Virus record (IMG/VR): IMGVR_UViG_3300032249_000095
Span: 1-33,788 of that record
DNA from: a virus
DNA: 33,788 bases
Direction: 5' to 3' (one strand)
The notes under the pieces were generated by a model. The model searched no databases. It was given only the letters and a program-made list of their open reading frames with translations, and was not told the DNA's origin. The translations under genes and the position numbers were made by a program. This document shows positions 9,038 through 30,708 of the stretch, piece by piece; position 1 is the first letter of the stretch, and each line of letters opens with the position of its first letter.

Positions 9038-9283
9038 TTAATCTCCCGCCCAGCGGACACCAGAGCGCCCAAGCCTGGTATTAATACTGAACTCCATATC
9101 ATTGGCTAATCTGCACAGCTTTTCGTTATCAGACTCTTCATCGTCTAATGGAATAAAGCCAGCAAATGGAACTGGCTCCGTATTCGCACAATGGTGGATC
9201 TCATCAATCGGCAACCGCTCTCCGCAATGCTCACAACTATTACGCATCGCTTCTTCTCTATCTTCAGTCGTAAACGTGGTCAT
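9038..9283 (-). CDS. Small zinc-binding-type protein
   Basis: The 81-aa product carries CEHCGERLPIDEIHHCAN near its N-terminus. C-x2-C followed by H-H-C gives four to five possible zinc ligands, similar to the DksA/TraR type of short zinc finger. The rest is acidic. The ATG at 9283 is preceded at 6 nt by AGGAG; a GTG one codon earlier is too close to that site. A 16-bp palindrome stands about 20 bp upstream of the start, so this gene is the likely first target of a regulator and heads the small-gene run down to 8682. Confidence 0.72.
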   Translation of the reverse strand: MTTFTTEDREEAMRNSCEHCGERLPIDEIHHCANTEPVPFAGFIPLDDEESDNEKLCRLANDMEFSINTRLGRSGVRWAGD

Positions 9284-9301: not shown

Positions 9302-9317
9302 ATAGCGATATCGCTAT
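9302..9317. promoter_or_regulatory. 16-bp palindromic operator ATAGCGATATCGCTAT
   Basis: This is a perfect inverted repeat in the 80-bp gap between the probable small terminase gene and the zinc-finger gene, just upstream of the latter's ribosome site. The core AGCGATATCGCT recurs exactly at 13348-13359 in front of the recombinase operon. A shared palindrome in two non-coding control regions is strong evidence for a common DNA-binding regulator. Confidence 0.65.
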
Positions 9318-9786: not shown

Positions 9787-10037
9787 CAGAATGGAATATC
9801 GCTATCTGACCTAGGCATCTCATCGTTGCCACGAGGGGTAAAGCCAGCTTGCTTGGGCTTGCCGATCTTCCCGGTTAGGTACCTCTTGCCTGTCTTGGCC
9901 TGTTTCTCATACGCATTGAACCAATACTCAAGGCCGTCAGCCAGCTTGATACTGCCAGACCAATCCGCATCTGTTTCTCCACGCTTTCTGTCGTTGACGA
10001 ATAGCTTAAAGCTACCTTCTTTCATTTCATAGTCCAT
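9786..10037 (-). CDS. Small ssDNA-binding-like protein with SSB-type IPF tail
   Basis: The 83-aa product has an aromatic/basic core (FKLFVNDRKRGETDADWSGS, then GLEYWFNAYEKQAKTGKRYL) resembling small phage proteins with an OB-like or beta-barrel plan. It ends with a flexible polar stretch and MPRSDSDIPF. The acidic DIPF end copies the C-terminal tip of bacterial SSB (DDDIPF), the docking site for host replication and repair proteins. I infer an ssDNA-binding protein that recruits host factors, which fits the lack of any other SSB here. AGGAG is placed 6 to 7 nt before the ATG. Confidence 0.65.
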   Translation of the reverse strand: MDYEMKEGSFKLFVNDRKRGETDADWSGSIKLADGLEYWFNAYEKQAKTGKRYLTGKIGKPKQAGFTPRGNDEMPRSDSDIPF

Positions 10038-10049
10038 ACTTCTCTCCTC

Positions 10050-10220
10050 TTATGGTTTAAATTTACTTTCTTCAATTGCCTCTACTACGTTTGCTGACTC
10101 CGACAGCCTCTGAGACTCCACTATCATCGCATGAATAACTGCTTGTAGGGAGAAACCCTGTCTCAGTAAGCCAAGACTACAACTGTGCAGCTCTCGCTTC
10201 AACTTCTCTTTCTCTTCCAT
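10050..10220 (-). CDS. 56-aa hypothetical protein
   Basis: The frame from ATG 10220 to TAA 10050-10052 begins MEEKEKLKRELHSCSLGLLR and continues as one or two amphipathic helices (VIHAMIVESQRLSESANVVE). AGGAG lies 5 nt before the ATG, the best argument that it is real. It sits 12 nt upstream of the SSB-like gene and is the first gene after the GC-rich gap that follows the replication-type protein. No family recognised. Confidence 0.65.
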   Translation of the reverse strand: MEEKEKLKRELHSCSLGLLRQGFSLQAVIHAMIVESQRLSESANVVEAIEESKFKP

Positions 10221-10401
10221 TTCATCTCCTTAAAAAAGTGGGGAAAAATTGAGTGGGACACCCCGCCCATAGTGGCAAGGGTGGGGGGAGAGGTATGCCA
10301 CTCGCTGGCAGACCGCCTCTGGCCAAGCGCAGAGGGCATCGTGCTTTCTGTATACACACCCACCTCTGCCTGTGCCGTATGCATACCACCGATTGGGTAC
10401 G
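10221..10401. other. GC-rich gene-free block beside the Rep-like gene; candidate origin
   Basis: About 180 nt with no supported gene. Several frames are open by chance because the block is GC-rich, but none has a ribosome site or protein-like sequence. It holds G-runs (GGGTGGGGGGAGAGG near 10280), repeated CCCAC boxes on the minus strand (three between about 10235 and 10285), and an A/T run next to the 10220 start. The neighbouring protein is a winged-helix replication-type protein. Repeats plus an AT-rich stretch beside a Rep-type gene is how many origins look, so this is a possible origin, by inference only. Confidence 0.3.
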
Positions 10402-11121
10402 TTACAAGCCATGGCTGTAGTCAATGATGGAGGCTGGTCGCTCTGGTCTGGCTCTCAACCACAGCTCCAGGTCATGTGCGAACTGCTCATTGGTTAAACC
10501 TATCGATTCCGCAACCTCGATAGCCTTCAGGTCTAGCTCATTTATCGTTTTCTTGTCTTTATATATTTTCCCATATAAGAGACTCACTATCTCCAACTTG
10601 CTGTTATAAGCCAATACTGCCTCACCATTGCTCTCAACCACTCGCTTGCTATCCACATATTCCCCAAGTGTTTTCACAGCCTTAGCGCTCGTTTTAGACC
10701 CCTTCTTAGCCATCTCTCTCTCCTCTTTCAAAATCATGTATGGACTTCTTCCATCCTCAGTATTCAATGCCAACGCATCAGCCAATGAGATATCTTCGTT
10801 ATAAACAATCCTCATGGTTGATGTGTGGCTCATTCGTGCGCCCTTGGTTAGCCGATCAACGTAGTTCTTCTCCCTCAACTTCGTCATCTGGGCGGTAATG
10901 GTTCTGCGACTGACTCCTAGATCCTTAGCCAATCTCTCTTGACCAACCCAAGTTATGCCACTTCGGTTCGCATAGGCACACACCATGCAAAGAACTCTGA
11001 GCGCCCCAAGACTCAGGCTCTTATCCATCACAGCTCGCAATGGCACAATCGCTATCTGCCTTCGATCTTGTGGCTTTGGCTTTATCCTAATCTTAGGTTT
11101 CTTTGGGATATCAAAATTCAT
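10402..11121 (-). CDS. Winged-helix replication-initiator-like protein
   Basis: The 239-aa protein opens with a basic tail (PKKPKIRIKPKPQDRR) followed by a winged-helix domain. SLGALRVLCMVCAYANRSG leads into the HTH itself, VGQERLAKDLGVSRRTITAQ (about 59-78), and KLREKNYVDRLTKG as the wing. This plan is that of phage replication-initiator or MarR-like DNA-binding proteins. The C-terminal half has helices ending LWLRARPERPASIIDYSHGL. The ATG at 11121 follows GTGAGG at 9 nt; a GTG at 11136 is itself part of that ribosome site and is unlikely as start. Recruiting the host replisome is the presumed role. A transcription regulator is the alternative. Confidence 0.68.
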   Translation of the reverse strand: MNFDIPKKPKIRIKPKPQDRRQIAIVPLRAVMDKSLSLGALRVLCMVCAYANRSGITWVGQERLAKDLGVSRRTITAQMTKLREKNYVDRLTKGARMSHTSTMRIVYNEDISLADALALNTEDGRSPYMILKEEREMAKKGSKTSAKAVKTLGEYVDSKRVVESNGEAVLAYNSKLEIVSLLYGKIYKDKKTINELDLKAIEVAESIGLTNEQFAHDLELWLRARPERPASIIDYSHGL

Positions 11122-11132
11122 TGAATAGAACC

Positions 11133-11336
11133 TCACCCGCTTATATAAGCGAGATATCTCTTTCGAGAGTGTCTATCGTTTATCGCCATGCTTAGGCTAT
11201 TCGCCATCACAATGCTAGGCCCGATCTCTTCGATGGTCATCCCTCGTGATTCAGCTGCGTTTATCTTGGTCTGGCAACACTCCATTCCAAAGGGCTGGGT
11301 TATGGCCCCGAGTTGTCTTTTTAGCAGATTAGCCAT
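11133..11336 (-). CDS. 67-aa hypothetical protein
   Basis: The product begins MANLLKRQLGAITQPFGMEC and includes GMTIEEIGPSIVMANSLSMA and RHSRKRYLAYISG. It has two adjacent cysteines (CC) and a possible short HTH-like helix pair, but no family is recognised. It overlaps the upstream zinc-ribbon gene by 8 nt and ends 11 nt before the Rep-like ATG, so it is part of the same coupled chain. The last codons lie within two palindromes that may regulate the Rep-like gene. Confidence 0.65.
   Translation of the reverse strand: MANLLKRQLGAITQPFGMECCQTKINAAESRGMTIEEIGPSIVMANSLSMAINDRHSRKRYLAYISG
11138..11160. promoter_or_regulatory. Twin palindromes before the Rep-like gene
   Basis: A perfect 14-bp palindrome CGCTTATATAAGCG (11138-11151) is directly joined to a 10-bp palindrome GAGATATCTC (11151-11160). 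They lie about 20-40 bp before the Rep-like start and inside the last codons of the preceding gene. Two fused palindromes within coding DNA are unlikely by chance and could be an operator or an RNA structure that tunes translation of the Rep-like gene. Confidence 0.45.
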
Positions 11337-11508
11337 GAGTTTGTAAAGGATTATCTTTCAATTCAAATTCACCGAGTTCTACTGTCCACCACGAGCAATA
11401 ACACTCCTTGCAGACTCTACGTCTTCTGATCCAGTTCTTAGTCTCATGCGCCCTAGTCTCAGCTACCTTAATCTCAAAGCTGTCACAGCCATCATTCACA
11501 CAAATCAT
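11329..11508 (-). CDS. Mini NrdR-type zinc ribbon protein
   Basis: The 59-aa product starts MICVNDGCDSFEIKVAETRA and has IRRRRVCKECYCSWWTVE near the middle. C-x4-C, then a strand with A-TR, then RRR-C-x2-C and an aromatic-T-x-E end is the layout of the zinc ribbon of NrdR, the repressor of ribonucleotide reductase genes. The ATP-cone domain that normally follows is absent. ATGA overlap with the PP-loop gene and an 8-nt overlap with the next gene support it despite its size. It could bind NrdR boxes in the host genome and affect dNTP supply, or be a generic zinc ribbon. Confidence 0.65.
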   Translation of the reverse strand: MICVNDGCDSFEIKVAETRAHETKNWIRRRRVCKECYCSWWTVELGEFELKDNPLQTHG

Positions 11509-12684: not shown

Positions 12685-13037
12685 TACTTGATTTCTTCAA
12701 TCATTACTTTGATAGAGCCACCCGGCACAATCTGTGAGCCACGATAGATCGACAGCTCATCAATCTGTGAGTCATCATCAAACAGGCCAGCATCTTGCAA
12801 GCTGTCTAACACGCTCTTGATGCGGTTATCGATGTCGAATACTCGCTTATCTCTTGGCCACACCACCATACTCACAGAGAGTCTCTTCGTACCCATTTTG
12901 GGAAAGTCACCACCAGAAATGTACTCGGCCACAGCTTGCTTGTACTCTCGCCCAGCCTTACTCATGTAGGTGGCATGAGCGCCCCTACGATAGTAAGTAT
13001 TGACCGATGGCGGGAACGGCAGCTCTAGGACAATCAC
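12684..13037 (-). CDS. rusA: RusA-type Holliday junction resolvase
   Basis: The 117-aa protein has the family signature. ELPFPPSVNTYYRRG lies at the N-terminus, and the catalytic region is RVFDIDNRIKSVLDSLQDAG (Asp68, Asp70, Lys74) followed by LFDDDSQIDELSI with the further acidic ligand. RusA dimers cut four-way junctions symmetrically, here to resolve recombination intermediates made with the YqaJ exonuclease and ERF protein encoded on the other strand. The start is GTG at 13037, overlapping the RHH stop as GTGA. Length equals the E. coli prophage RusA (120 aa). Confidence 0.93.
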   Translation of the reverse strand: MIVLELPFPPSVNTYYRRGAHATYMSKAGREYKQAVAEYISGGDFPKMGTKRLSVSMVVWPRDKRVFDIDNRIKSVLDSLQDAGLFDDDSQIDELSIYRGSQIVPGGSIKVMIEEIK

Positions 13038-13207
13038 GCAAGCATCTTGTTTAGACGTTGCGATAGATCCCCTTGCTTGCTCAAAGCAGAGCGCAACTCA
13101 TCATTAATGATGACAGCTATAGGCTTATTGCGCTGTTGGGCAGTCTGTTCTAACAAGGTTCTAACATCTGGGCGCAGTCGCACCAGGAATGGCTTTAATT
13201 CGGTCAT
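13034..13207 (-). CDS. Ribbon-helix-helix (Arc/MetJ-like) regulator
   Basis: The 57-aa product starts MTELKPFLVRLRPDVRTLLE. It has a beta strand with alternating polar residues (KPFLVRL, 5-11), helix A (PDVRTLLEQTAQQRN), a turn at NKP, helix B (IAVIINDELRSALS), and a basic end. That is the RHH repressor plan, where strands of a dimer read the major groove. It heads the leftward block and is divergent from the serine recombinase gene across 180 bp that carry a palindrome and a promoter, the typical place for an autoregulated switch gene. Overlap GTGA with rusA. Confidence 0.75.
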   Translation of the reverse strand: MTELKPFLVRLRPDVRTLLEQTAQQRNKPIAVIINDELRSALSKQGDLSQRLNKMLA

Positions 13208-13311
13208 TGTTTGCCTTATTTAGTTGAGATATCTGATTGTAGACTAAATATAGCGTAATAAGATTAGGGTAAACACCTACCAATTTAGTTAAAAAAAACT
13301 ACATTTAGTTC

Positions 13312-13339
13312 TTGACGTGTGTTTTGGCTGTGGTAAATT
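13312..13339 (+). promoter_or_regulatory. Predicted sigma70-type promoter of the recombinase operon
   Basis: TTGACG (13312-13317, 5 of 6 to the -35 consensus) is followed after 16 bp by TAAATT (13334-13339, 4 of 6 to the -10 consensus). The expected start of transcription is near 13346, immediately before the palindrome at 13348. The recombinase ATG follows at 13388 with AGGAG 6 nt upstream. It is the best host-type promoter seen in the window, and the phage has no RNA polymerase of its own. Confidence 0.6.
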
Positions 13340-13347
13340 AACACCTA

Positions 13348-13359
13348 AGCGATATCGCT
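13348..13359. promoter_or_regulatory. Palindromic operator AGCGATATCGCT at the transcription start
   Basis: This is a perfect 12-bp inverted repeat placed at about +3 to +14 of the predicted promoter, where a bound protein would block transcription. The identical core stands at 9304-9315 before the zinc-finger gene. The RHH product encoded just to the left, or the recombinase itself, are the candidate binders. Confidence 0.65.
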
Positions 13360-13387
13360 ATTAACCACCGAGACACAGGAGTTAACT

Positions 13388-14038
13388 ATGTTTGTAACCT
13401 ACTACAGAGTATCAACACAACGTCAAGGCCAATCAGGTCTTGGCTTAGAGGCACAGCGTTCTGCCGTACAGGCTTACCTTGCTGGCAAAGAAATCATTGC
13501 AGAGTTTACTGAGGTTGAGTCTGGCCGTAAGACAGACCGCCCACAACTCGCAGCTGCTCTTGCATTGGCTAAGAAAAATAAAGCCACACTCGTGATTGCT
13601 AAGTTGGATCGTCTTGCTCGTAACGTGCATTTTATCTCTGGCTTGCTTGAGTCTAACGTGCAGTTCGTAGCAGCTGATATGCCAGAGGCAGACCGCACAT
13701 TCCTACAGATGGCTGCTGTGTTTGCTGAGTGGGAGGCAAAGAAGATATCTGAGCGCACCAAATCAGCTCTAGCAGCTGCCAAAGCTCGTGGAACTGTATT
13801 GGGTTCACCAACTCCACAGATCGGCTCACAGGCTGGTTTAAAGGCTATCAGCGACAGATGCGATGCATACGTCAAGAAAGTCGCACCCACTCTGCAAGAC
13901 ATCGTTAGCCGGGTAGGCACTAATTTGCGTACAGTTGCAGCCGAGTTGCAACTGCGTGGTATCAAGACCGCTAAAGGTTTAGATGTATGGCATCCCGCCC
14001 AAGTAGGAAAACTTTTGAGAAAGGTTCAATATGCTTGA
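13388..14038 (+). CDS. Small serine recombinase (resolvase/invertase type)
   Basis: The 216-aa protein has the resolvase catalytic domain: TYYRVSTQRQGQSGLGLEAQ with nucleophile Ser9 and Arg7, the KLDRLARNV motif (Arg75, Arg78), and FAEWEAKKISERTKSALAAA at the dimer helix. The C-terminal part holds an HTH-like segment (TLQDIVSRVGTNLRTVAAEL, about 168-187). At 216 aa it is like Tn3/Gin-type enzymes and far shorter than large serine integrases, so site-specific resolution or inversion is more likely than prophage integration. It is first in the rightward operon behind an operator-controlled promoter. AGGAG is 6 nt before the ATG. Recombination sites were not identified. Confidence 0.9.
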   Translation: MFVTYYRVSTQRQGQSGLGLEAQRSAVQAYLAGKEIIAEFTEVESGRKTDRPQLAAALALAKKNKATLVIAKLDRLARNVHFISGLLESNVQFVAADMPEADRTFLQMAAVFAEWEAKKISERTKSALAAAKARGTVLGSPTPQIGSQAGLKAISDRCDAYVKKVAPTLQDIVSRVGTNLRTVAAELQLRGIKTAKGLDVWHPAQVGKLLRKVQYA

Positions 14039-14764: not shown

Positions 14765-15721
14765 ATGGTAGGTAAGGTCACTCCCAACGATATGCTCTCT
14801 GCAAGCCGCCTCCCAGCGGTTTGTGGGATGAGCCAGTATCGCTCGCCAAACGATGAGTTGCTTTCAAGTATTGCAGCCATCGATGGTAAGGAATTAGAAA
14901 ACATCAGTAACGAGTCAATGGATTGGGGCAACAAGCTAGAGCCAACCATACTGACCGAGGCAGCTCACAGGCTGGGTTGCCACCAGTTAGACATCAACCA
15001 CGAGAAACCATACTTCCACGATAAGTGGCCCATTTCATGCAGTCTCGATGGCACAGCCACAGGATCGATGGAGGAGGTCTTCACCGATCCAGAGCGTGGC
15101 ATCTATGTGGTGGGTCAGTCTTCTATAAGACTTGAGGGTACAGGAGTCTTGGAGGCCAAGCTAACTGCTATGGATGCCGAGGATGTCTTGCCCCTGTATC
15201 GGGGGCCAATCCAACTGCAAGCGCAGATGGCTATCACCAAGGCATCATGGGGCGCTATCGCTGTGCTGTATCGTGGCACAGAGTTGCGGATCTTCTTGTT
15301 TGGACCACACGCAGAGACCTTAGAACTCATTGAGAGAACGTGCAAAGAGTTCCAAGACAAGCTGGATCGCTATAAGAACACCGGCTACATTGACCACTAC
15401 CCACCCATCAGCCCAAAGGATGCAGCTAGAACTTGGTCTACTAGCTCGGATAGTGAGCTAGTAAAGCTGGATGATTATGGTGTGGAGCTGACCAAATTAA
15501 TCTTAGAAAACAAGCAAAAAATATCTAGGCTTGAAGAGGAAACGGCTAAGGCACAGACTGAGATTATGGGAATGATGAGAGACCACAGCCATGCATTGGC
15601 TGGTGACTTTCAGATAACGTGGCCTCAGCGTAGCTACAAAGCAGCCCCAGCCAAGATTGTGCCAGCCAAAGAGGCTTACACAATTCGTCAATCAACATTA
15701 AATATTAAGGCATTCAAATGA
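14765..15721 (+). CDS. YqaJ-type recombination exonuclease
   Basis: The 318-aa protein shows the lambda-exonuclease/YqaJ core of the PD-(D/E)xK nucleases: SMDWGNKLEPTILTEA (Glu59), WPISCSLDGTATG (Asp95), GTGVLEAKL (Glu130, Lys132) and PIQLQAQMAI (Gln152). A C-terminal helical part (KLILENKQKISRLEEETAKA) looks like a coiled coil. These 5'-3' exonucleases resect dsDNA ends to give 3' tails for an annealing protein. The next gene is an ERF-type annealase with ATGA overlap, the standard two-component pair. AGGAG stands 8 nt before the ATG. Confidence 0.88.
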   Translation: MVGKVTPNDMLSASRLPAVCGMSQYRSPNDELLSSIAAIDGKELENISNESMDWGNKLEPTILTEAAHRLGCHQLDINHEKPYFHDKWPISCSLDGTATGSMEEVFTDPERGIYVVGQSSIRLEGTGVLEAKLTAMDAEDVLPLYRGPIQLQAQMAITKASWGAIAVLYRGTELRIFLFGPHAETLELIERTCKEFQDKLDRYKNTGYIDHYPPISPKDAARTWSTSSDSELVKLDDYGVELTKLILENKQKISRLEEETAKAQTEIMGMMRDHSHALAGDFQITWPQRSYKAAPAKIVPAKEAYTIRQSTLNIKAFK

Positions 15722-29655: not shown

Positions 29656-30498
29656 TTAAGATTCACGAGCGGTGATTTTGACAATACCCTCATCATCGAT
29701 AATAATCGATCCAGCAGAGAAAATGCTGTTCACTAGGAACGAGGTCTTCTCAGGGATGTAATTAATTTCGGTGCGTGGGGCAATACCTTCTGCATAGCCA
29801 AGTGCATCTTTATGGAAAGCAAAGCAAGTGCGGTCTAAAGAACCATCAACTGCTAAGCCACCCTCAGAGCGGTCACCAAGGATATGGAAAGTAAAGCCCA
29901 AGAAAGTATTGATTTCACCAGCAACAAGTGCTTTAACAGTATTGAAGTCAGAGCTAGTTACTGCTGTCTCAGACAACAACGATGATAAGCCATTTGCGTG
30001 GAGGATAATATGACGGCCCTCTGGAGGTACGTTATTTTTATCCAACAGCTTCTTAGCTTCACGCAACTTGGCTACGTTCATGTTGGTATCAGAACCGCCG
30101 ATATCGTTAGAAACAGTCAAGCTGGTGCTGGTATTTCCGAGTGCATCAAGAATCAACTGGTCTTGTCTACGGCCAATAGCGTTGGACAATACTTGTACCA
30201 ACTCTTGGCGCTCGTCAAAATTGACTTTAGCTTGGGTAAAGATATCGCTGTATTCAGCAGCGTTCCAATCTTGCAATGTGCAAGTTACGTTGCTAAATGC
30301 TACGTTTAATGGAGTTACGTCAGATTGTGCAATGCGTGGGGTAGCCACACCTTTGCCAACCTTTGGAAACTTAACAGTAGAGCCTTCAACTCCTCTGCGC
30401 TGACGAACAGCACCTACCAGCATAGCCTTGCCCTGGAAAGCCTGTTTTACCTCAGCATCAAATAGAGTTACAAAGGCATTAGATAATGAAATGCTCAT
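29656..30498 (-). CDS. Major capsid protein
   Basis: The 280-aa protein starts SISLSNAFVTLFDAEVKQAF, continues with AMLVGAVRQRRGVEGSTVKF (25-44), typical for the N-arm/E-loop start of this capsid family, then AAEYSDIFTQAKVNFDERQE, RQDQLILDALGNTSTSL, and KLREAKKLLDKNNVPPEGRH with the VPP-GR motif of the P-domain, and ends with IIIDDEGIVKITARES. HK97 fold is assumed from the family. It has its own long leader after a terminator, which would set its expression apart from the scaffold gene upstream. AGGAG is 6 nt before the ATG. Confidence 0.92.
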   Translation of the reverse strand: MSISLSNAFVTLFDAEVKQAFQGKAMLVGAVRQRRGVEGSTVKFPKVGKGVATPRIAQSDVTPLNVAFSNVTCTLQDWNAAEYSDIFTQAKVNFDERQELVQVLSNAIGRRQDQLILDALGNTSTSLTVSNDIGGSDTNMNVAKLREAKKLLDKNNVPPEGRHIILHANGLSSLLSETAVTSSDFNTVKALVAGEINTFLGFTFHILGDRSEGGLAVDGSLDRTCFAFHKDALGYAEGIAPRTEINYIPEKTSFLVNSIFSAGSIIIDDEGIVKITARES

Positions 30499-30708
30499 GT
30501 ATTTCTCCTAAAAGGTAAAAAAATAAATTGGGTTTTTGCTTTGGTGTGCCTGTTGCCAGGGCCTACGCTTGCTACTTGCGGTAGCCAATCGTCAGATTAA
30601 TCTGCATCAAGGGCCAATTAAATGGTATGCCTTAATGAGTTTCTAGCAGAAATGTAGGAAAAATACAACATCTAGTGAAATATTTTTTATACCAACTAAA
30701 TGTTGATG
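30499..30708 (-). promoter_or_regulatory. Capsid gene leader with conserved-looking secondary structure
   Basis: This gap between the terminator and the capsid ATG holds no supported gene (longest frames under 20 codons without ribosome sites). On the minus strand it contains CCTGGCAACAGG (30560-30549; a 4-bp stem with a GCAA tetraloop), GCTAC-CGCAA-GTAGC (30585-30571; 5-bp stem) and the perfect palindrome CAGATTAATCTG (30593-30604). The capsid promoter must lie here or further upstream; TTGTAT-17-TAGAAA is a weak candidate near 30677-30649. Confidence 0.45.

Follow-up and report, generated by a model that had tools for sequence, protein, structure and literature searches.

Predicted control of the divergent early promoters of a MEP301-like phage by an Arc-like repressor and a lone NrdR-type zinc ribbon

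Arc-like phage repressors are a known kind of regulator, and Arc of phage P22 (immI) is the described protein to which the repressor considered here is best compared. It resembles Arc in profile and, as a predicted small ribbon-helix-helix (RHH) protein, is proposed to act on palindromic operators so as to turn down an early promoter and limit its own synthesis. It differs from Arc in its low sequence identity, in its operator, and in being wired to a recombination operon and to a second promoter 4 kb away; the ant gene and the Mnt partner were not seen in our phage. A second comparison is with bacterial NrdR, which shares with a small phage protein from the same region the zinc ribbon fold, an RRR motif, paired boxes over promoters and specificity residues in the same place. 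The phage form, however, targets a phage early region, and its ETR variant goes with recoded boxes at wider spacing. In the Tn3/gamma-delta res region, too, repeated sites separate a serine recombinase gene from a divergently read neighbour, but the sites described here go with the RHH gene and with promoters rather than with the recombinase. The pairing of an Arc-like repressor with a lone NrdR ribbon is new.

The nearest isolate is the Methylophilales phage MEP301, whose TerL and portal proteins are 77% and 78% identical to those of our phage. It belongs to the same phage group and has the same RHH-RusA and recombinase-RecE-Erf order. Its RHH protein is nevertheless only 38% identical, it lacks the palindrome AGCGATATCGCT described below, and it has no NrdR ribbon and no NrdR boxes near the RHH gene. 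The MEP301 paper describes no such regulation and mentions neither a repressor nor lysogeny, and the papers found give no description of gene control in the MEP301-like aquatic phages, a large and abundant group.

The window, meaning the whole 33,788-base record analysed here (G000), has a GC content of 44.5%, and no exact terminal repeat was found in it. Portal, tail and internal virion proteins identify a short-tailed phage. Its leftward order RHH-RusA-SSB-TerS and rightward order recombinase-RecE-Erf are common to MEP301. The RHH gene is the first of the leftward RusA/replication operon and the small serine recombinase the first of a rightward operon with a RecE-like exonuclease and Erf; as originally predicted, the two diverge across 180 bp (positions 13208-13387). 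In our overall explanation, which we hold to be likely, this interval is where a short-tailed phage of the MEP301 type controls its early genes in both directions. Three proteins served as queries to gather relatives, namely the recombinase, the RHH protein and the product of the gene starting at 9280; the palindrome was not used as a query. In this way 120 loci with a PFLVRLRP-type RHH were counted, and one contig can supply several loci. The catalytic residues of the serine recombinase are invariant, and in recombinase relatives from further clades the RHH gene is divergent from the recombinase in every locus holding both.

Table 1 Genes and candidate regulatory sites of the divergent early region (window coordinates)
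Feature	Position	Strand	Details
Arc-like ribbon-helix-helix repressor (predicted)	13034..13207	-	57 aa; beta strand KPFLVRL; phrog_582 E=0.0024
Small serine recombinase	13388..14038	+	216 aa; Pfam Resolvase E=1.4e-29
Recombinase-operon promoter	13312..13339	+	-35 TTGACG 13312-13317; 16-nt spacer; -10 TAAATT 13334-13339
Operator O1, AGCGATATCGCT	13348..13359		At recombinase-promoter transcription start; exact in 117/120 same-RHH-type loci
Operator O2, ATAGCGATATCGCTAT	9302..9317		16-bp perfect palindrome; fronts 9280 gene; same place in relatives
Zinc-finger-like protein	9038..9280	-	80 aa; ATG at 9280; downstream of O2
Degenerate operator O3 (putative autoregulatory site), TGAGATATCTGA	13225..13236		GATATC at RHH promoter in nearly all relatives of this RHH type
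NrdR-type box 1, ACTACATTTAGT	13298..13309	+	Exact match to ACWAYATNTWGT
NrdR-type box 2, GCTATATTTAGT	13243..13254	-	1 mismatch to ACWAYATNTWGT; just upstream of RHH -10
Central element, TAGGGTAAACACCTA (TAGG-N7-CCTA)	13265..13279	+	Conserved; between two promoters
Lone NrdR-type zinc ribbon	11329..11508	-	59 aa; ETR replaces DSR; Pfam Zn_ribbon_NrdR E=6.8e-9

Several weak lines of evidence point consistently to an Arc-type RHH fold for the 57-aa protein. Its phrog_582 match is to an Arc-like repressor family. Scans of 18 RHH relatives matched Pfam Arc in 7/18, RHH_1 in 5 and RHH_3 in 4, and a profile comparison with Arc gave an hhalign probability of 79%. Searches of the PDB gave weak matches only (Arc, E=0.68). 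The AF2 monomer model predicts helices at residues 13-26 and 30-44 and an extended N-terminus with the strand unpaired, at a mean pLDDT of only 67. The single-sequence scores are weak and the model modest; the family matches are weak but consistent.

The original prediction placed a palindrome over the predicted start of a TTGACG-16-TAAATT promoter, with an exact copy of its core at 9304-9315, and the window bears this out with no other exact copy. The first base of O1 lies 8 nt past the -10 hexamer, which puts the palindrome at about +1. The second copy had been described as preceding another early gene; its position stands, with the correction that this gene reads leftwards from 9280. The 10-bp core of AGCGATATCGCT did not occur in any of 100 dinucleotide shuffles. 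Near matches at 15251, 19478, 22026, 27461 and 30238 of the window all lie inside coding sequence and were rejected.

A search of related phages found the palindrome kept at the same two places. The exact 12-mer occurs within 900 nt upstream in 117 of the 120 PFLVRLRP-type RHH loci; of the three exceptions, one is cut at a contig end and two (L058 and L064) have near versions. Among 11 diverged representatives the 12 palindrome columns are 100% identical, with most flanking columns at 25-60%. The distance from the -10 to the palindrome is 7-8 nt in relatives despite unrelated promoter sequences, and in loci with cargo genes ahead of the recombinase the palindrome remains at the operon promoter. 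Such cargo genes are variable and lie between O1 and the recombinase in many loci (L003, L012, L046); the gap reads as a hot spot for small early genes. O2 fronts homologues of the 9280 gene in relatives. The 9280 gene and its homologues in L033, L130 and L135 keep an EPIPFAG/EPVPFAG motif across clades and the zinc-finger part in some only; in distant homologues EPIPFAG persists although the zinc finger is missing. Among long records, AGCGATATCGCT copies number exactly two in the window and in the L130/L044-type clades, one in the L034, L056 and L038 records and none in L082, L201, L207 and L256; the reverse-read control for this count was zero in all long records. Eighteen near-full or partial records yielded no additional full operator.

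The original prediction of a two-operator regulon with an autoregulated repressor is well supported for O1 and O2, which are kept and whose sequence covaries with the RHH strand (see below), but it overlooked a third site and the two NrdR-type boxes. O3 directly follows a putative RHH -10, TACAAT (13236-13241, minus strand), and, where the divergent region is intact, most PFLVRLRP clades carry a further GATATC at or upstream of the RHH start. Examples are TCAGATATCTCA after TACAAT in the window, TAGCGATATCTA after TATGAT in L056, and TGTATGCTCACAGATATCGG in L130. L040 has no GATATC site by the RHH start, and the L038/L041/L042 group has another gene ahead of RHH. Across 26 RHH clusters, 28 GATATC sites lie within 160 nt upstream of RHH versus 2.05 expected, an enrichment whose P value is only indicative because the clusters are related. 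As O3 lies over the RHH gene's own promoter, this operator-like site, present in nearly all relatives of this RHH type, supports the predicted autoregulation. The divergent region of a related phage group (L220, L223 and L225) has three GATATC sites at intervals of ~35 bp, which may form an array of operators.

A second class of candidate sites lies against the recombinase -35 and within the RHH promoter. NrdR-type box 1 ends 2 nt short of the recombinase -35 and is present in all 76 of the 76 loci with the window's RHH start; its gap to TTGAC is 2 nt in 37 of 50 distinct regions, and box 2 is paired with it in relatives. Both boxes were scored against ACWAYATNTWGT, which we take to be the NrdR-box core consensus and which both ACTA-N4-TAGT and CACAA-N4-TTGTG repeats fit. 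We had considered the inverted repeats at the -35 as clade-specific sites of an HTH protein, a reading rejected since the NrdR-box consensus accounts for both forms. A two-box layout over promoters is confirmed for NrdR in published work. Between the two promoters, the TAGG-N7-CCTA type of element is found upstream of RHH in 115 of 191 loci, with 148 copies in 1.79 Mb overall.

The leftward operon also encodes the 59-aa zinc ribbon. It aligns with positions 6-45 of 147 only of TIGR00244, below the cut-off, and the ATP-cone domain is absent from it. It matches NrdR in the PDB (E=5e-7), and its AF2 model (pLDDT 87) has NrdR as all of its best 13 Foldseek matches. Phage ribbons have invariant C3, C8, C33, C36 and R29-R31, corresponding to the four Cys and the Arg-rich motif of the NrdR N-terminus. 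Among loci whose sequence continues for 3 kb or more beyond the RHH gene, the ribbon gene was present in 68/68 PFLVRLRP loci and in no locus of another clade. Clades without the ribbon gene have no boxes in the 300 nt upstream of RHH; exact boxes occur at a background rate of 0.002 per 300 nt.

The form of the boxes also follows the form of the ribbon. In Streptomyces (S.) coelicolor NrdR, D15 and R17 read bases, and R17A abolishes binding (PMC9110341). At the DNA-reading residues of the solved NrdR, phage ribbons carry DSR or ETR. ETR loci have paired CTA..TAG boxes, and all DSR loci with boxes in range (7/7) have one CAA..TTG box, the other being CAA..TTG or mixed. The DSR/ETR change probably represents one evolutionary switch. 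Spacings within box pairs are 40, 43-45, 52-55 and 63 bp and exceed the spacers tested for NrdR, which tolerates 14-17 or 24-27 bp. They cluster by helical phase better than random (resultant 0.66, P=0.0025, 9 distinct values), but at 4-6 turns and with the 40-bp spacing as one class. A second NrdR-type pair, at 30665-30676 and 30695-30706, lies upstream of the major capsid gene (29656-30498, minus strand). These boxes are 30 bp apart, near the canonical NrdR spacing, and are also seen in L289, L290, L304 and L298 and absent in the other clades looked at.

The lone ribbon is a probable reader of the NrdR-type boxes, and good circumstantial support exists for it as a second regulator. As the boxes form a second operator class, the 180-bp region is probably not under the RHH protein alone. 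The boxes could instead be read by host NrdR, and early expression of the phage would then be tied to the dNTP pool of its host. Full NrdR occurs widely among bacteria, binding pairs of boxes that lie over promoters, and the boxes of the DSR clade have the canonical form. Against this, related phages without the ribbon gene are without the boxes, and the CTA..TAG boxes of ETR phages depart from canonical CACAA..TTGTG in step with the phage's own protein. We consider host NrdR an unlikely reader.

For the GATATC palindromes, the identity of the reader is suggested by covariation with the RHH beta strand. Across clades, the strand KPFLVRL goes with operator AGCGATATCGCT, FNKFFVRL with GTTGAGATATCTCAAC (as in L080), NTLLIRL with GCGATATCGCAGCGATATGC, FYFRL with AGATATCTG, which is repeated, and KPFMVRL with TGCGCTATCACTGCGATAGCGCA. 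The clearest discordant case between RHH and recombinase is L071, whose recombinase shares 65% identity with that of the window over the C-terminal domain. L071 has a different RHH strand and no palindrome, whereas L056, L032 and L038, with C-terminal domains only 52%, 55% and 56% identical, have the same RHH strand and the palindrome. By this comparison, the palindrome tracks the RHH beta strand and not the recombinase DNA-binding domain. The L071 recombinase (10001-10636) is itself chimeric, its catalytic half being 58% identical to the window's against 65% for the C-terminal half, which suggests domain swapping. MEP301, L147 and L148 have a KPFLVRLT strand and AGCGATATCGCT was not found in them, so the core strand alone does not set the operator. 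Because the operator, the RHH strand, the NrdR ribbon and its boxes are for the most part markers of a single clade, their co-occurrences are not many independent events. Nonetheless, palindromes kept at both places and differing where the RHH beta strand differs make a multi-operator RHH regulon well supported, and an RHH-repressed, autoregulated early regulon is likewise well supported, if not proven, by these sequence comparisons.

Two other readers of the palindromes were weighed against the RHH protein. A host transcription factor would be consistent with the recurrence of the GATATC core across several phage clades, but the operator varies by clade together with the phage RHH beta strand and a site also lies at the RHH gene's own promoter; the palindrome is not known to match host LexA or other known host sites, and we judge a host factor very unlikely. 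The palindromes might also be crossover or accessory sites at which the serine recombinase inverts or resolves the 4-kb segment, with self-repression as by gamma-delta resolvase at res. The recombinase gene adjoins one copy, full-length records of the nearest clades have two, and the asymmetric flanks of the two copies are mutually inverted. However, the palindrome sits at transcription starts, with little variation in its distance from the -10, goes with the operon promoter rather than the recombinase gene, and is single in the L034, L056 and L038 records; no inverted arrangement was seen among loci with both copies, and in L071 the state of the palindrome is discordant with the recombinase C-terminal domain. 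Given where the palindrome lies, the clades with only one copy, the absence of inversions in these loci and the case of L071, we reject this highly improbable reading and retain the RHH protein as the predicted reader.

The original prediction also raised control of an alternative life style, which the window does not bear out: a bistable switch between lysis and lysogeny, in which RHH and another regulator would repress each other, would fit divergent promoters that share operators and a distant family relative that is a probable prophage, but has only a slight chance of being correct given that the window proteins scanned include no second repressor of CI/Cro type, no CI/Cro pair and no tyrosine or large serine integrase, and that the prophage relative uses its own tyrosine recombinase, located after RecE where the window has Erf. 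That relative (65% TerL identity) lies inside the 186-kb contig JAIXTP010000026.1 of a Hyphomicrobiales MAG (L307, L309, L310). The element, about 35 kb long, has RecE and the tyrosine recombinase at one end and RHH and the recombinase at the other; the genes beyond it are host-like. It is bounded by a 16-bp direct repeat, GTCGCATAAGACATAT, with copies ~35.3 kb apart. The repeat resembles a dif site. The phage family thus probably includes at least one prophage, this element, but it does not follow from such a relative that the region in the window is a lysogeny switch.

In the RHH and NrdR-ribbon model that we favor, host RNA polymerase would read both divergent promoters and the 9280-gene promoter after infection, and the 57-aa Arc-like repressor would be made from the leftward operon. 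The repressor would then occupy AGCGATATCGCT where transcription of the recombinase operon (O1) and of the 9280 gene (O2) begins, blocking initiation, and at the weaker GATATC site O3 in its own promoter it would hold down its own level. The predicted net effect is that early recombination genes are shut off after a delay, while the repressor regulates itself negatively. The lone NrdR zinc ribbon, made from the same leftward operon, would bind one box by the recombinase -35 and the other upstream of the RHH -10, so that both promoters would be repressed or tuned. Sites, conservation, placement and co-variation are what we observe; from these we infer that the proteins bind, that repression follows, when it sets in, and in which direction the NrdR ribbon acts. 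This whole account, RHH shut-off at O1, O2 and O3 together with the NrdR ribbon on both promoters, is in our estimate probably correct.

Without an ATP-cone, the phage ribbon has no known nucleotide sensor. We lean, by a small measure, toward a broader proposal in which an NrdR ribbon freed from its nucleotide-sensing domain and an Arc-like repressor would together exert two-layer control over divergent early promoters, and in some phages also over the major capsid gene, with an Asp-to-Glu change in the reading motif accompanying the recoding of boxes from CAA..TTG to CTA..TAG. For MEP301-like phages, control is here predicted to the base from conservation alone, and the natural RHH/operator pairs could give recognition rules for RHH proteins. 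If the NrdR part is true, a widespread bacterial DNA-precursor sensor would have been cut to its DNA-reading domain and reused by viruses. It would also represent a natural specificity change at residues known from cryo-EM, making the NrdR recognition code directly testable.
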